Source: Lachnospiraceae bacterium
GTDB taxonomy: Bacteria; Bacillota; Clostridia; Lachnospirales; Lachnospiraceae
Reading direction: 5' to 3'
Assembly (NCBI GenBank): GCA_024696005.1
Contig: JAILHF010000006.1
Coordinates: 1-32,999 of the forward strand
DNA: 32,999 bases
Positions 16,663 through 22,792 of this stretch are shown here, in pieces. The translations under genes were made by a program, and so were the position numbers. How positions within the stretch are numbered: the stretch's first letter is position 1; every line of letters starts with the position of its first letter. The notes under the pieces are model-generated. The model searched no databases, was not told the origin of the DNA, and worked only from the letters and a program-made list of their open reading frames with translations.

Positions 16663-19600
16663 ATGAAACGCAGAAGAGTATTAGCTATGCTCATGACAGC
16701 TGTGATGTCGTTCACCACGATCGGCTCTCAGGCGGCTCTTCCGGTTTATGCCGGCGATGTCGTGATCGAGGACGAGCTTGGGGACGAGGACGCAGTGTCG
16801 GAGAACGACGCGGTTTCGGAAAATGAGACGGCGTCCGAAAACGAAGCGGTATCGGACAATGAATCTGAGGAGGTCATTACCGATACGGATGCCGGAGAAT
16901 CGACTTTGCCTGACGGCATCAAGGGAATGCCGGACGGATACAAGCTTTCGGCAGAGGAAGCCGAGGTCAAGAGCCTGATCAATGCGAACGACGTTGTTTC
17001 GGGGCTCGCTGATCTGGTGGAAGACGTGGATTACGTTGCCGGAGAGGTGTTCTGCCTGGCAGAGACCGAGGAGTATGCGCAGACGATCGCAGATGCCTAC
17101 GGGATCGAGCTTCTGGATTTCAATTACGGCGTGGCAACCTTTGATGTCACCGTAAGCGGCAGAACCGTTGCCGATGTGGTAACGATCGGTGCAGACATGA
17201 AGAATGATCTGCCTGCTCTGGAGCCGAACTACATCAGAGTGGATGTTCCTCTGGACGAGGAATTCGGATACAGCGAAGATGTCAGCAGCTATGCAAGAGT
17301 AAATACCCCTTCCGATTGGGAAGACATCTACAAGAGCATGTCCAACCCGGATCCTCTGCTTGCACCTTCTGATGACAACTATCAGTGGTGGCATGACATG
17401 ATGGACAGCTGGGGCGGCTGGGGACTGTACGGAACCGATTTCTCGGGCAGCGGGATCAAGGTTGCCGTCATCGACTCGGGTATCAACGCACAGCATGAGG
17501 ATCTGAGCGGTCATACCACCCAGATCACCGAAGCGGGCGGCGGTGCCGTTACCAGAAGCGGACACGGAACGCACGTGGCCGGCATCATCGGTGCAACCGC
17601 GAACAACGGCAAAGGCGGCGCGGGTGTTGCACCCGGCGTGCAGCTTGTTGCTCTGTGCCATACCGATGCAAACAAAAAGATCACGGATGCGCTTATCACA
17701 TCCTGCCTGAATTATGTATGCAAGCCGGAAAACGGGATCAACATCGTTAACATGAGCTTCGGCGGACCTTCCTATTCTGCTTCGGAAGCAGTCCTGTTCG
17801 ACAAGGCTTATTCACACGGCGTTACTCTGCTGGCTTCCACCGGTAACGATTCTGCAAACACGGTGAAGTATCCGGCACAGTATAATCACGTCATTTCTGT
17901 AGGTGCGGTTCAGCAGGACAGCACCAGAACCCATTTCTCCACGTACGGAAGCAACATCGCCGATGTTTATGCACCCGGTGCGGATATGATGAGTACCTAT
18001 ATTGGCAGCGCCAGCGCCTATGAAAAGGAGCAGGGTACTTCCATGTCCTGTCCTGCGGCAGCAGGTGCATGCGCACTCTACATGAGCATCGCCGGCCCCA
18101 CGGATCCGGACACTATGGAGAAGATCCTTACCAAGAACACGATCAAGAGCTCTTCCTCGGACAGCGGCGCGGGCATTGTGAACGTAGCCAAGATGTTTGA
18201 GGCAGATACGACCGGTCCTCAGCTTCAGCTGAATGCGGCTGACAAGACTCCGATCACTACCGTTGCAAGCGGGAAGACCGGCAGCGCTACGGCAGATGCC
18301 ACCGCTGTTCTTACGATCACTCCCTGCGAATACGCATCCAACAAGGCGGGCAACAAGAAGACCCAGATCTTCTTCACCGTGAACGGAAAGGCTCCTTCCT
18401 TTAAGAACGGGTATGCCGCAGCCGGCACCTACCTGACTTCGGACGGAACGGTAAGACTGGAAGACTATGCAAATCTTCTGGCAGAGAGCAACCAGAAGCT
18501 TACGATCAAAGCGGCCTGCGTGACCGGCATGGGCATTGTGAGCAAGGTTACGACGATCAATATCTCGGTCAATCCCGTGGCTCCTTATGAAGTGTTCATC
18601 GTGGATCAGCCGGGACGCCTTGCAGCCGGTACCTCCTGGAAGCTGACTGCAGTTGTAGGCAAGAAGGGCGAACTCAGAGAAAACTACAAAGTGATCAAGA
18701 ACGGAACCTGGGAAGTCATCAGCGGATCCGCAACTGCGACCGTCAACAAGGATGGCGTGGTACAGACCACCAAGGGTCAGTCCGGTTCGTTTACCGTAAA
18801 GTGCAGCTATACCGAAAAGGGTGTTACCGTTTTCGGAACTGCTGTTCTGACCGTGGGTGATGTTGCACCGATCAAGACCATCACGCTCAGCGACACCGAG
18901 CTCAAAATGAGCACGCCGAGGGATTCCGAGAAGCTTGGTACCGTGAACAGAAAGGCAGTCAGCCTTACGGCCATTGACGGTGACGGAAAGGATGTTACCG
19001 GAGACAGACTGATCAGGTATGAATGGAGTTCTTCCAATTCCAATATCGCAACGATCGCCGAAACAAAGGATAACGGAAGGGAAGTTACGATCGTAGGACA
19101 GTCCAAGGGAAGCTGCACGATCACCTGCAAGGCTCTCGACGGATCCGGAAAGACCGCTACCCTGAAGGTGAATGTTCTGCAGCTGGTTACCGAGATCAGT
19201 GTGGATGGTCAGGATTTCATCCCCATGGGAACCACCGCAACCTACAAGGAAACGGCACGTGCATGGAATTCGACTCTCAGAAGCTACGAGACTCCTTACG
19301 ACAAGAGCGTTACCTGGTCCCTGCGTGAAGGCCTTGGCTCGCCGGATGCAACGACCATCGGCGGCGCAACGATCGATCCCAAGAAGGGAACCGTAAGAGT
19401 TACGGATCTCAGCCCGAAGAGCTTCTACGTGGTTGCTACCGCAAATGACGGTGGCGGAACGATCGGCTATCGTCTGGTTTCGCCCGTCAGCGCAAAGAGC
19501 AACGGCCTGACGATCACTGCGGATTCCTCTGACCCTGCTTACAAGGTCAGCAACGGAAAGGGCGGAAGCGTGGAATCGGTTCAGCTCTTCACGGTCAATG

Positions 19601-20496
19601 CAACTTCCAGCCCTGTGAACGAAATGGCACTTACGCTTACCGCTGCTCTGGATAACGGCACTGCTCCTGTCTGGAGCTGCAGCGACTACACTGTGGTAGG
19701 CCTGAGCCGTAGCGGCAATAAGGTGACGCTCAATGCCAGAAAGAAGGGTTCCGCAACGGTTACCTGCACGGCAAGCGACGGATCCGGCAAGAGCGCCAAG
19801 ATCAAGGTTAACGTCATCGTTCCGGTATCCAATCTGATGCTGACGAACAAGACTCTTGCAACCTATGCGGATGCTGAGGGTGGTGTTTCCATGGCAATCC
19901 TCGGTGCAGGCTGCTCGACCAAGACCGAGGTTACGGTTGGCGATGCCTACGGTAAGGCCAGCAATAACAAGGTTGTCTGGGGTTATCAGATCGTGGCGTA
20001 CAACGATGATTACCAGGCAGTAGCACTGCCCGAGGCCATTGCCCAGAAGGCAGACAGCCTGAAGCTGTTCAAGGTCAAGGGCAACAAGCTGACCATCAAT
20101 AAGGATTACTTTACTATTGTTGAGAGAAACGGTCTTCCCGATGTTGCGATCGTGATCACCGCGACAACTACGGACGGAACCCAGATCACTGCAGGAAAGA
20201 TGATCGTACCGAGCGTAAAGATCTCCAAGCTCGGCTTCGGCAGATCGTTCAAGAAGTCTGTTTCCCTGATCGGATCGAGAAACAGCACCATGACCTATGT
20301 GGGAACCTATGGTATCAACTGGGTAGGCCAGAACTACGGTCTTGCCGTAAAGAGCAGCAACATCAGCGTTGCGACCGGTTACTATTCCGGCGGTGAGATC
20401 GTGATCTCCTGCGGAAAGCCCGGCAAGGCTGTTCTGACGATCTCGTCGAAAGACGGTTCGAACAAGAAGTGCAAGATCAAGCTTAAAGTCAGATAA
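16663..20496 (+). CDS. secreted subtilisin-like (S8) serine protease with N-terminal FNYGVATF domain and C-terminal Ig-like repeats
   Basis: A 1277-residue secreted protease. Residues 1-30 are a signal peptide ending LPVYA. An acidic stretch of repeats (VSEND, VSENE, ASENE, VSDNE; about 44-68) follows, then a propeptide-like domain (about 100-205) containing FCLAETEEYAQTIADAYGIE and FNYGVATF (153-160). The S8 catalytic domain spans about 250-515. Its triad is D271 (AVIDSG), H301 (GHGTHVAG) and S460 (GTSMSCPAAAG), with oxyanion N395 (STGNDS). The rest is beta-rich, with Ig-like (BIG2-type) units ending DGSGKTATLKVNV, DGSGKSAKIKVNV and DGSNKKCKIKLKVR. No LPXTG is seen. It acts outside the cell, probably on peptides or surface proteins. 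Clear promoter and terminator suggest a single-gene unit. The substrate is unknown. Confidence 0.93.
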   Translation: MKRRRVLAMLMTAVMSFTTIGSQAALPVYAGDVVIEDELGDEDAVSENDAVSENETASENEAVSDNESEEVITDTDAGESTLPDGIKGMPDGYKLSAEEAEVKSLINANDVVSGLADLVEDVDYVAGEVFCLAETEEYAQTIADAYGIELLDFNYGVATFDVTVSGRTVADVVTIGADMKNDLPALEPNYIRVDVPLDEEFGYSEDVSSYARVNTPSDWEDIYKSMSNPDPLLAPSDDNYQWWHDMMDSWGGWGLYGTDFSGSGIKVAVIDSGINAQHEDLSGHTTQITEAGGGAVTRSGHGTHVAGIIGATANNGKGGAGVAPGVQLVALCHTDANKKITDALITSCLNYVCKPENGINIVNMSFGGPSYSASEAVLFDKAYSHGVTLLASTGNDSANTVKYPAQYNHVISVGAVQQDSTRTHFSTYGSNIADVYAPGADMMSTYIGSASAYEKEQGTSMSCPAAAGACALYMSIAGPTDPDTMEKILTKNTIKSSSSDSGAGIVNVAKMFEADTTGPQLQLNAADKTPITTVASGKTGSATADATAVLTITPCEYASNKAGNKKTQIFFTVNGKAPSFKNGYAAAGTYLTSDGTVRLEDYANLLAESNQKLTIKAACVTGMGIVSKVTTINISVNPVAPYEVFIVDQPGRLAAGTSWKLTAVVGKKGELRENYKVIKNGTWEVISGSATATVNKDGVVQTTKGQSGSFTVKCSYTEKGVTVFGTAVLTVGDVAPIKTITLSDTELKMSTPRDSEKLGTVNRKAVSLTAIDGDGKDVTGDRLIRYEWSSSNSNIATIAETKDNGREVTIVGQSKGSCTITCKALDGSGKTATLKVNVLQLVTEISVDGQDFIPMGTTATYKETARAWNSTLRSYETPYDKSVTWSLREGLGSPDATTIGGATIDPKKGTVRVTDLSPKSFYVVATANDGGGTIGYRLVSPVSAKSNGLTITADSSDPAYKVSNGKGGSVESVQLFTVNATSSPVNEMALTLTAALDNGTAPVWSCSDYTVVGLSRSGNKVTLNARKKGSATVTCTASDGSGKSAKIKVNVIVPVSNLMLTNKTLATYADAEGGVSMAILGAGCSTKTEVTVGDAYGKASNNKVVWGYQIVAYNDDYQAVALPEAIAQKADSLKLFKVKGNKLTINKDYFTIVERNGLPDVAIVITATTTDGTQITAGKMIVPSVKISKLGFGRSFKKSVSLIGSRNSTMTYVGTYGINWVGQNYGLAVKSSNISVATGYYSGGEIVISCGKPGKAVLTISSKDGSNKKCKIKLKVR
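16785..16872 (+). repeat. Ser-Glu-Asn repeat region in the protease
   Basis: Five successive protein units of the form [VA]S-[ED]-N-[ED] follow the signal peptide. The codons differ between units (GTG TCG GAG AAC; GTT TCG GAA AAT; GCG TCC GAA AAC; GTA TCG GAC AAT), so the repeat is kept at protein level and is not a recent DNA duplication. Confidence 0.75.
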
Positions 20497-20522
20497 AAAG
20501 ACTTTCGGCAATGTGAAAAACG

Positions 20523-20550
20523 AAACCGGTGGCAAACGCCACCGGTTTTT
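20523..20550 (+). terminator. terminator after the S8 protease gene
   Basis: AAACCGGTGGC (20523-20533) and GCCACCGGTTT (20538-20548) form a perfect 11-bp stem with an AAAC loop, then T residues. The next gene's -10 box begins three bases later. Confidence 0.92.
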
Positions 20551-20558
20551 GGTATAAT
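20550..20558 (+). promoter_or_regulatory. extended -10 promoter of the lipoprotein gene
   Basis: TGG followed by TATAAT (20553-20558) makes a TGn-TATAAT extended -10 element. The -35 position (20530-20535, TGGCAA) is poor and falls inside the terminator stem of the protease gene. AAAGGAGG at 20581-20588 is the ribosome site. Confidence 0.6.
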
Positions 20559-20593
20559 GAGGCCGGAGGAGCTTCTTCGGAAAGGAGGGCGTC

Positions 20594-21133
20594 ATGAAAA
20601 AGTTTTGTCGGATGGGACTGATCTGTTTTGCTGTTCTGTTGTCCGGATGCGGGGGAAACGAGGCGGAGCCGATCGTTGTTTCGCCGCAGCCGGAAGAAAC
20701 GGTTTCGGAGGCGGATGCCGGAGAAACGGTGATCCCCGAAATGCCGGAAGAGAAGGGGCCGGCGTTTGAATATCGCGGACCGGAAGGGGAAGGAGATGAG
20801 TCGGAAGAAGTGAAGTTCGAAAAATACGATACGGAAGTGGTGAGTGAAGGGGAACTCGCGAATATCCTCAATAACAGGAATCCCGTCGGAGAGCTTGCGG
20901 AGGGGGAAGAGCTGATGTGCCTGGCCGACAGCGAAGCCGAAGCGCAAAAGATCGCCGAGCAGTATGGGATCAGCCTGGTTCTGTTCAACTACGGAGTAGC
21001 GACCTTTCACACGGAAGAAGATCCGTCGGTCGTGATACAGAGAGGGATAGATAACGGTTGGCCGGAATTGTCGCTGAATCGCGCGAACAAGCTGGAGGAG
21101 CCCCAAAAACCTTTATCGGAAACACGAAACTGA
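20594..21133 (+). CDS. lipoprotein related to the N-terminal domain of the neighbouring S8 protease
   Basis: A 179-residue protein with a lipoprotein signal: a short positive N-terminus, hydrophobic segment and lipobox L16-S-G-C19. A disordered, acidic stretch follows (about 20-85). Residues 105-138 then read EELMCLADSEAEAQKIAEQY, followed by GIS and LVLFNYGVATF. The protease has the same pattern at 128-160 (C-L-A, then YGI-x-L-x-x-FNYGVATF). The preceding DAGE...P stretch is also shared. There is no catalytic domain. By analogy with subtilisin propeptides, which fold with and inhibit the enzyme, it could be a membrane-tethered inhibitor or folding helper for the protease, but this is inference. 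It could also be a remnant of a partial gene duplication. The lipobox, promoter, ribosome site and terminator argue that it is expressed. Confidence 0.85.
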   Translation: MKKFCRMGLICFAVLLSGCGGNEAEPIVVSPQPEETVSEADAGETVIPEMPEEKGPAFEYRGPEGEGDESEEVKFEKYDTEVVSEGELANILNNRNPVGELAEGEELMCLADSEAEAQKIAEQYGISLVLFNYGVATFHTEEDPSVVIQRGIDNGWPELSLNRANKLEEPQKPLSETRN

Positions 21134-21143
21134 AGGAATTAAG

Positions 21144-21171
21144 AAAAGGATGCATGACAGCATCCTTTTTT
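21144..21171. terminator. bidirectional terminator between lipoprotein gene and tRNA-Ala
   Basis: AAAAGGATGC (21144-21153) and GCATCCTTTT (21160-21169) form a 10-bp stem with a 6-base loop. T-runs occur on both strands, so it can end both the forward lipoprotein transcript and the reverse tRNA transcript, whose mature 3' end is at 21173. Confidence 0.85.
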
Positions 21172-21172
21172 A

Positions 21173-21245
21173 TGGAGATAGGGGGACTCGAACCCCTGAC
21201 CTATGCGTTGCGAACGCATCGCTCTCCCAGCTGAGCTATATCCCC
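21173..21245 (-). tRNA. tRNA-Ala (anticodon CGC)
   Basis: The reverse strand folds as a complete 73-base tRNA. The acceptor is GGGGATA with TATCTCC plus discriminator A, the D stem is GCTC/GAGC, the anticodon stem is ATGCG/CGCAT with loop TTCGCAA, the variable loop is AGGTC, and the T loop is TTCGAGT. The anticodon CGC reads GCG (alanine). The acceptor stem has the G3-U70 pair, the known alanine identity element. The outermost T-stem pair is an A49-C65 mismatch. CCA is not encoded. A good promoter and a terminator flank it, so it is a single-gene unit. Confidence 0.95.
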
Positions 21246-21255
21246 AAACAGAACA

Positions 21256-21316: not shown

Positions 21317-22792
21317 ATGAAAAAAGAGGAAGAAAAAAAAGAGGAGATCATAGAGAAAAAAGCGGAAGAAGCATCTCCGGATCAGGCCAGTGATTACGAT
21401 TTCATACGCGAGAAGATCCGTGAACGCCCGATCAACCGGAAGAAACTGGTCCGGCGCACGCTTTTTACGGCCGGAATGGCTGTGCTTTTTGGCCTGGTGG
21501 CTTGCATCACCTTTATTTTTTTGCAGCCTTTGTTCAGCCGCATGCTCAGTTCGGACGAGGACATGGAACTGAAGGTCGTGAGTTTCCCGGAGCAGAATGA
21601 GGAGGAGGAATCTCCGCAGGTTCAGGTGCTTCCCCCGGATGAGGACGACCCGGAGCAGCTGGTGATCGAAACGCCGATCCAGCAGATGAGTCTGAGTGAT
21701 GAGGATGTGGTGAGCGCCAATCAGGCGGAACAGGCGGTCAGTGACAATGAGGCAGACGAAGATGAGCGGGATGCCGACAAGCCGGACCAGGCTCCGCAGG
21801 TGATCGTGGAACAGGTTCCGCTGGAACCCGAGGACTACCGTCAGCTGTACCGCAAGCTCTATGCGCTGTCTACGGAAGTAAACAAGAGCCTGGTAAGGAT
21901 CGTCTCCATACCGGAGGATGTGGACTGGATCGGGGCTGCCGAAAACTTCAGTGAGGAAACGATCGGACTGATCATAGCCGAAAACGGACAGGATCTTTTG
22001 ATCCTTGCCAATTCCGGCCAGATAGACAAGGATGCCGTTCTGAATGCCGTTTTCTGTGACGGTGCGAGAGGAGAGCTTTACGAAAAAGCGATCGACCCGG
22101 ATACCGGCCTTGGGGTATACGGCATTGCCCTTTCTTCCATGAAGAAAGAAACGAAAGATGCGATCCAGGTCGCGACGCTGGGAAGCTCGTATGCCAGCAG
22201 CATTTTGGGGAACGCCGTGATGGCTGTCGGTTTTCCGATCGGCACGTCTTCGATCTGCTATGGGGCCGTGACTTCAACGGACAAAACGGTCAGCATGCGT
22301 GATGCATCGTATCAGCTGCTTACCACAGACATCTACGGCAGCAGGTCGGCCAGCGGCGTGATCGTAAATATCCGCGGACAGATCGCGGGCATCATATGCC
22401 AGGATCATAATGACAGCGGCATGGAGAACATGATCTATGCCTATGGCATCAGCAGCATACGAAAACTGATCGAGAATCTTTCCAACGGAAGGACGACGGC
22501 TTATCTCGGCCTGCGTGTCGGCGAAGTGTCGCCGGAGGTCGCGGAAAAGCTGGGGATCCCGCAGGGAGTATATATCAATCAGGTGGAAATGGATTCTCCG
22601 GCAATGAGCGCCGGCCTGGCCCGCGGGGATATCATTCAGAAGATCGGAGATATCAACACGAATAACATTACGGAATACATGAGCGTGATCCAGAACACCG
22701 AGCCGGAATCGGAGGTGGAACTGGTCTATGCCCGTTTTGACGGCGAGGAATATCGGAGCATGAAGCTGACGATCGTGTTGGGAAGCAGATAA
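21317..22792 (+). CDS. membrane-anchored HtrA-like protein with PDZ domain, probable pseudoprotease
   Basis: A 491-residue protein with a charged cytoplasmic N-terminus (1-45), one membrane helix (about 48-72), an acidic linker holding VSAN and AVSDNE motifs, a trypsin-like (S1C/HtrA) domain (about 180-385) and a C-terminal PDZ domain (about 393-488, from YLGLRVGEV). The HtrA fold is recognisable, but key motifs are changed. TNNHV is replaced by ANSGQ with G234 at the His place. DPDTDLAV becomes DPDTGLGV with G264 at the Asp place. GNSGG is replaced by SRSASG (342-347), where Ser 344 or 346 might remain. It probably binds rather than cuts proteins outside the membrane; this is inferred from alignment by eye. 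There is no ribosome site before the ATG. It heads a unit with yhaM and rlmD. Confidence 0.85.
   Translation: MKKEEEKKEEIIEKKAEEASPDQASDYDFIREKIRERPINRKKLVRRTLFTAGMAVLFGLVACITFIFLQPLFSRMLSSDEDMELKVVSFPEQNEEEESPQVQVLPPDEDDPEQLVIETPIQQMSLSDEDVVSANQAEQAVSDNEADEDERDADKPDQAPQVIVEQVPLEPEDYRQLYRKLYALSTEVNKSLVRIVSIPEDVDWIGAAENFSEETIGLIIAENGQDLLILANSGQIDKDAVLNAVFCDGARGELYEKAIDPDTGLGVYGIALSSMKKETKDAIQVATLGSSYASSILGNAVMAVGFPIGTSSICYGAVTSTDKTVSMRDASYQLLTTDIYGSRSASGVIVNIRGQIAGIICQDHNDSGMENMIYAYGISSIRKLIENLSNGRTTAYLGLRVGEVSPEVAEKLGIPQGVYINQVEMDSPAMSAGLARGDIIQKIGDINTNNITEYMSVIQNTEPESEVELVYARFDGEEYRSMKLTIVLGSR

Follow-up and report, generated by a model that had tools for sequence, protein, structure and literature searches.

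How does a bacterium that secretes a subtilisin-like protease spare the proteins of its own surface? The sparing is usually credited to the propeptide carried in cis, but a 32,999-nucleotide stretch of Lachnospiraceae bacterium DNA (GCA_024696005.1, contig JAILHF010000006.1, positions 1 to 32,999; hereafter the window) raises the question of whether a separately encoded propeptide relative may take part. In the window, a gene for a secreted protease of family S8 is followed on the same strand by a gene for a small lipoprotein carrying a domain that resembles the prodomain of the protease. Prodomain homology, a predicted propeptide fold, anchor signals, conserved gene pairing and a lineage of its own form the computed basis of our proposal, which we judge to be probably correct, that the lipoprotein is a membrane-tethered propeptide relative that acts in trans, binding the neighbouring protease at the cell surface so that its active site is blocked. 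The initial annotation had suggested either an inhibitor or a folding chaperone; the pairing in relatives and the predicted fold support that suggestion, and of the two roles we favour the inhibitor, acting as a protector of the cell.

Residues 262–494 of the protease match PF00082 with an expectation value (E) of 1e-44 and 153.5 bits against a cut-off of 21.8, placing the enzyme in family S8. Asp271, His301, Asn395 and Ser460 are all in place, and presumably have the catalytic roles of their subtilisin counterparts, with Asn395 serving the oxyanion; these four putative catalytic columns are invariant in all 17 aligned proteases. A structure model of the protease (predicted local distance difference test, pLDDT, 79; predicted template modelling score, pTM, 0.86) was closest to fervidolysin, with an E of 1e-21 over 454 columns, and also matched unprocessed pro-subtilisin E, among others. 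These matches fit a docked prodomain without demonstrating docking. In a genome scan with a prodomain model whose own rows include the window sequence, the window was matched at 17005–17238 with an E of 3e-33. PF22148 (Fervidolysin_NPro-like) was matched by 3 of 11 cis prodomains (best E 2e-4) and exceeded its cut-off in the partner proteases of 6 of 19 genomes, with the window protease in neither set, and the C-terminal region gave weak matches to Ig-like models, every one below its cut-off. The same prodomain is present on two more S8 proteases of the window genome (L004:3800–7405, − strand; L005:5090–9412, + strand). A free-standing partner was not found in the stretches fetched around these two genes, and the window lipoprotein might act on their products too.

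The small protein begins with a lipobox, LSGC, ending in Cys19, which matches the lipoprotein signal pattern as first annotated and marks it as a predicted bacterial lipoprotein. A Pfam search of the whole protein returned no family and an NCBIfam search only a signal-peptide model (E 0.38); Inhibitor_I9 was matched neither by this protein nor by the 22 members of alignment A5 at E up to 1. Its likeness to the prodomain is real. A shared block of 33 residues aligned gap-free with a score of 107, against a mean of 23.4 for shuffled sequences, none of which scored as high in 2,000 trials, and a profile-profile alignment of 10 lipoprotein domains with 11 prodomains extended over 66 columns with a probability of 98.8 and an E of 1e-16. 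A second element of the annotated likeness, a DAGE...P stretch in both proteins, was dropped as a sign of homology: the two linkers, DAGE stretch included, do not stand out, 27 of 2,000 shuffles reaching the same score.

Structure prediction, which had been proposed as a check on the lipoprotein domain, gave a propeptide fold, as an inhibitor or a chaperone would need. The model covers residues 88–179, was built from 33 sequences and has a mean pLDDT of 80, rising to 91–96 in the core blocks. It runs strand-helix-strand-strand-helix and closes with a strand of just two residues by DSSP; the protease prodomain is predicted as strand-helix-strand-strand-helix-strand. When the model was compared with the PDB by Foldseek, the top match was ORF2 in its complex with the Aeromonas sobria serine protease, ASP (3wqb_B; E 2.3e-3, probability 1.00), followed by the solution structure of ORF2 (2mk4) and prosubtilisin; the furin-bound PC1/3 prodomain, a lanthipeptide protease, fervidolysin and 1spb_P were among the 50 matches listed. 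Sequence-profile searches of the PDB with alignments A3, A4 and A6 did not find propeptides.

Conservation of the pair was assessed by searches for the free-standing domain that made no use of the protease. Matches inside protease frames were left out, and 27 copies from 26 genomes were analysed (the window, L066–L081, L094–L099 and L112–L115), L072 and L074 coming from one assembly and the L073 and L080 domains being identical. A search of 35 genomes of the genus found the domain in 9 genomes (10 copies), and a second search gave 16 named loci, of which 9 lay on contigs already in the genus search and 7 were new. The order search (392 genomes, 9 positive) added 6 copies besides the window, with two other positives set aside, the family search (397 genomes, 8 positive) added 4, and the class search (391 genomes, 2 positive) added none; a search of plasmids found no free-standing protein. 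With 8 of 397 genomes positive in the family sample, the protein is rare. Fifteen of the 16 named loci belong to Lachnospiraceae, four of them with a ruminant in the name, and one (L078) to Acetanaerobacterium elongatum, an Oscillospiraceae isolate sequenced as a named strain and not as a metagenome assembly; the domain stands beside a protease in several genera. Three candidates were rejected before the count of 27 was made: the tenth positive of the genus search (G008, E 2.6e-7) was false, its frame of 2541 residues carrying ester-bond adhesin domains and its stretch lacking an S8 match, and an apparent chorismate synthase (G354, E 2.9e-6) and an apparent S8 protease (G340) were set aside by eye.

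A gene with the prodomain lay on the same contig as the free-standing copy in 27 of 27 cases, so the co-occurrence in relatives whose absence would have spoken against the annotated pairing was found. An S8 catalytic domain is visible in 25 of the partners, those of L074 and L080 running off the contig end, and all 25 of these pairs are co-stranded, with the small gene first in 17 and the protease first in 8. The open frames are at most 200 bp apart in 24 of the 27; two genes intervene in L070, L072 and L074. On the contig of L074, where the prodomain gene lies at the contig end, one of the two encodes a secreted CAP-domain protein (L034:2566–4197, − strand; PF00188, E 7e-17). The four loci fetched once the pairing had been noticed (L112–L115) were all paired. 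Within the genus, 9 of the 10 genomes that carry this prodomain also have the free-standing protein, against none of the 25 that lack it. By our own arithmetic, such an association would arise about once in 7 million for independent genomes, but genomes of a single genus do not have that independence. S8 proteases in general, present in 20 of the 35 genus genomes, do not track the protein.

The free-standing proteins look membrane-anchored in 26 of 27 cases, judging from their N-termini: 16 have a canonical lipobox, four (L094, L095, L098 and L113) show by eye a Cys at the end of a hydrophobic stretch, and six (L075, L077, L079, L097, L114 and L115) a transmembrane-like stretch with no such Cys. 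Near the other terminus, one position is Asn in 26 copies and Asp in one. The matching residue of the subtilisin BPN′ propeptide is an Asp followed by six residues to the C-terminus; the tail beyond the conserved position has 6–8 residues in 15 of the 27 copies and 10–24 in the other 12, and an aromatic or aliphatic residue stands sixth in 18 of the 27. PMC6993865 describes Glu69 and Asp71 of the subtilisin propeptide as capping enzyme helices, with Glu and Asn at the same places in SUB1-ProM. In a register taken from sequence and predicted strand order rather than from superposition, the first six tail residues of the lipoprotein would by homology lie in the substrate cleft.

Gene pairing, fold and tail together point to binding in the active-site cleft of the partner. 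The lipoprotein sheet would pack on surface helices of the catalytic domain in the manner of a propeptide, the conserved Asn would stand in for Asp71 as a helix cap, and the residues that follow this Asn would sit product-like in the cleft. The protease would fold with its own prodomain, shed it and turn active; enzyme that lingers near the membrane or comes back to it would be captured by the domain tethered on its long acidic linker, shielding the surface proteins of the cell, while released enzyme would act at a distance.

In a tree of the 27 free-standing domains and 33 cis prodomains, the two sets split cleanly with a support of 100/100, which speaks for a lineage of free-standing domains separate from the cis prodomains; the tree uses only 80 columns and is rooted at its midpoint, and part of the split may stem from a difference in length after strand 3. 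Because the free-standing domains all lie on one side of this supported branch, repeated local duplication of each protease's own prodomain was rejected. Mean identity to the prodomain of the own partner was 29%, against 26% to the others, a difference not reached in any of 20,000 permutations (26 pairs), and the distance matrices of free-standing domains and prodomains correlate (r 0.56); shared descent alone could yield both results. A second kind of free-standing prodomain protein was seen in G721 (L117:7909–8550, − strand), a 213-residue frame with a transmembrane-like start and an S8 gene on either side. It groups nearest to protease prodomains and not within the free-standing clade, and membrane tethering of such domains may therefore have arisen more than once. 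Two other frames were noted. The one in G026 (L119:4407–5606, + strand; 399 residues) ends in a propeptide-like domain that exceeds the PF22148 cut-off, and the stretch fetched around it gave no S8 match. The one in G013 (L118:5994–6707, + strand; 237 residues) has a single transmembrane-like stretch and is reminiscent of an anti-sigma factor; the matches of its C-terminus to ORF_2_N and PF22148 both stay under the cut-off.

Several observations weigh against binding and inhibition by an anchored propeptide relative. The L099 copy shows no anchor; 12 of the 27 tails exceed 8 residues, and the window protein departs from the pattern in both respects, with a tail of 17 residues and Glu in sixth place; and only 3 of the 22 A5 copies retain the Glu that lies two positions ahead of the Asn and serves for capping in subtilisin. 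The Foldseek matches are weak, none having E ≤0.001, with template modelling (TM) scores of about 0.5 and other ferredoxin-like folds close behind, so that the fold class is safer than any one relative. Similarity to the own partner is only slightly above that to others (p 0.04 in the genus subset of 9 pairs), and the own partner ranked first in only 3 of 26 pairs. We see about even chances that the proteins make up a family of gut Clostridia dedicated to self-protection, in which an old line of prodomains, freed from the enzyme and fixed to the membrane by a lipid or a transmembrane helix, keeps the cell's own secreted subtilase off at the surface. If true, a membrane-fixed propeptide in trans would be a simple further answer to self-protection from secreted subtilases, and the pair gives a rule by which rumen and gut Lachnospiraceae could be searched for such inhibitors, namely in the neighbourhood of secreted proteases.

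The strongest competing explanation, which we nonetheless regard as unlikely, is an external folding chaperone: the anchored domain would act like ORF2 as the protease leaves the membrane, and inhibition would be a by-product. ORF2 is the best structural match of the lipoprotein model, its Pfam family ORF_2_N (PF18492) gave matches to six of the 22 A5 members (best E 0.011), level with DUF6723 and above all other families, and of 10 ORF_2_N matches (E up to 10) in a whole-genome scan of 19 genomes, 3 fell on free-standing genes and 2 on S8 proteases. The cut-off was reached in none of the 19, however, and controls also gave matches below it in 5 of 14. By the account in PMC5638518, ORF2 is required for ASP maturation and also inhibits ASP, with a half-maximal inhibitory concentration of 84 nM. 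An anchor at the exit site would suit such a role. ASP itself is reportedly propeptide-deficient, to go by the title of a cited paper, whereas all partner proteases seen here carry their own prodomain, so that a chaperone would be less needed. Moreover, 11 further prodomain matches of the same class in the nine genus genomes lie on other contigs, where a linked copy was not found; most such proteases are therefore without one, although an effect in trans could still reach them. It is because the partners keep their own prodomain and nearly all free-standing proteins look anchored that we prefer an inhibitor to a chaperone.

Less probable still is a surface tether, in which the lipoprotein mainly holds the protease at the surface for retention or regulated release, as proposed for PrcB and PrcA with dentilisin. 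A long linker with a lipid or transmembrane-like anchor would suit it, and PMC8167434 describes Treponema denticola PrcB as a lipoprotein encoded in the prtP operon, an interaction partner of PrtP and a requirement for PrtP expression. In library searches, the only comparison with PrcB made, no match tied the window lipoprotein to it. A propeptide-like dock would also block the active site and silence whatever it tethers, leaving the retained enzyme inactive, and we therefore prefer a membrane-bound inhibitor. That the anchored domain is a sensor or sacrificial substrate, whose cleavage reports protease activity or competes for it, seems very improbable: the longer tails of 12 copies, the window protein included, could be cleaved, but a signalling part was not seen by eye in the lipoproteins and the whole domain is preserved, beyond a mere cleavage site. 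Neutral duplication of a prodomain with no dedicated role would account for genes lying side by side like tandem duplicates, but hardly for a lineage apart from all 33 cis prodomains compared and kept beside a protease in several genera and one Oscillospiraceae isolate, and we give it almost no credence.

The features of the locus are listed in Table 1. Of the promoter and terminator initially assigned to the lipoprotein gene, the terminator-like hairpin was found on the expected strand, while a promoter of its own is plausible but unproven because the sigma-70-like match overlaps the intergenic hairpin. Just past the lipoprotein gene, on the opposite strand, lies a tRNA-Ala gene (anticodon CGC; 21172–21246, −), followed by a gene (21317–22792, +) for a protein of 491 residues that has a membrane-like stretch and ends in a PDZ domain; its Pfam matches are to PDZ models only, and its acidic linker looks by eye like that of the protease.

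Table 1. Coordinates of the protease and lipoprotein genes and associated features in the window
Feature	Position	Strand	Remarks
Secreted S8 protease gene	16663..20496	+	1277 aa: signal peptide, acidic linker, prodomain, catalytic domain, long C-terminal region
Protease cis prodomain	17005..17247	+	~residues 115–195; alignment A4
Protease catalytic domain	17434..18186	+	~residues 258–508; phmmer to subtilisins
Terminator-like hairpin, intergenic	20522..20549	+	z −4.1; on the opposite strand only in the other listing
Sigma-70-like promoter match	20529..20558	+	overlaps intergenic hairpin; consensus match only
Lipoprotein gene, free-standing propeptide-like domain	20594..21133	+	179 aa
Lipoprotein signal peptide	20594..20650	+	lipobox LSGC, Cys19
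Lipoprotein acidic linker	20651..20902	+	residues 20–103; D/E 24/84
Lipoprotein propeptide-like domain	20903..21079	+	residues 104–162; conserved Asn162 as predicted domain end
Lipoprotein C-terminal tail	21080..21130	+	17 residues
Terminator-like hairpin 3′ of lipoprotein gene	21142..21171	+	z −5.1

Stand-alone propeptide inhibitors in eukaryotes, ORF2 in Aeromonas and gene-linked lipoprotein inhibitors of C10 proteases have already been described, and so has selective inhibition in trans by propeptides (PMC10580911); among the matches listed from open-licence full-text literature, with subscription papers mostly outside this scope, we found no description of a protease-lipoprotein pair of the present kind. 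The window protease and the partners seen carry a prodomain, unlike the propeptide-deficient partner of ORF2, and the window lipoprotein, unlike the eukaryotic inhibitors, is bacterial and leaves Pfam I9 unmatched. To our knowledge, neither ORF2 nor the eukaryotic proteins are membrane-anchored. ORF2 (PF18492) resembles the lipoprotein in being bacterial and encoded separately just downstream of an S8 protease gene; as described in PMC5638518, its C-terminus lies at the catalytic site of the protease that it inhibits, and operons of its type occur in Aeromonas, with homologues in four other genera. The free-standing propeptide fold is shared with Pleurotus peptidase A inhibitor 1, yeast peptidase B inhibitor, Arabidopsis subtilisin propeptide-like inhibitor 1, Toxoplasma MIC5 and Plasmodium SUB1-ProM, known inhibitors of subtilases, the last of which is also encoded next to subtilases and carries an Asn in the capping place (PMC6993865). 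In SpeB-Spi and in the Bacteroides C10 inhibitors Bfi and Bti, an inhibitor gene is likewise linked to that of a bacterial protease, as proposed here, and BtiA is one of those predicted to be lipoproteins, but their targets are cysteine proteases and Bti is described as staphostatin-like and mostly β-sheet (PMC3462683). Finally, the dentilisin system (PrcB-PrcA-PrtP) also combines a small lipoprotein, encoded in the protease operon, with a subtilisin-family protease, and the window protease matches the PrtP model, although at 76 bits far below its cut-off of 300; the system differs in that PrcB is needed for PrtP to be expressed and is described as without homologues outside oral Treponema (PMC8167434).
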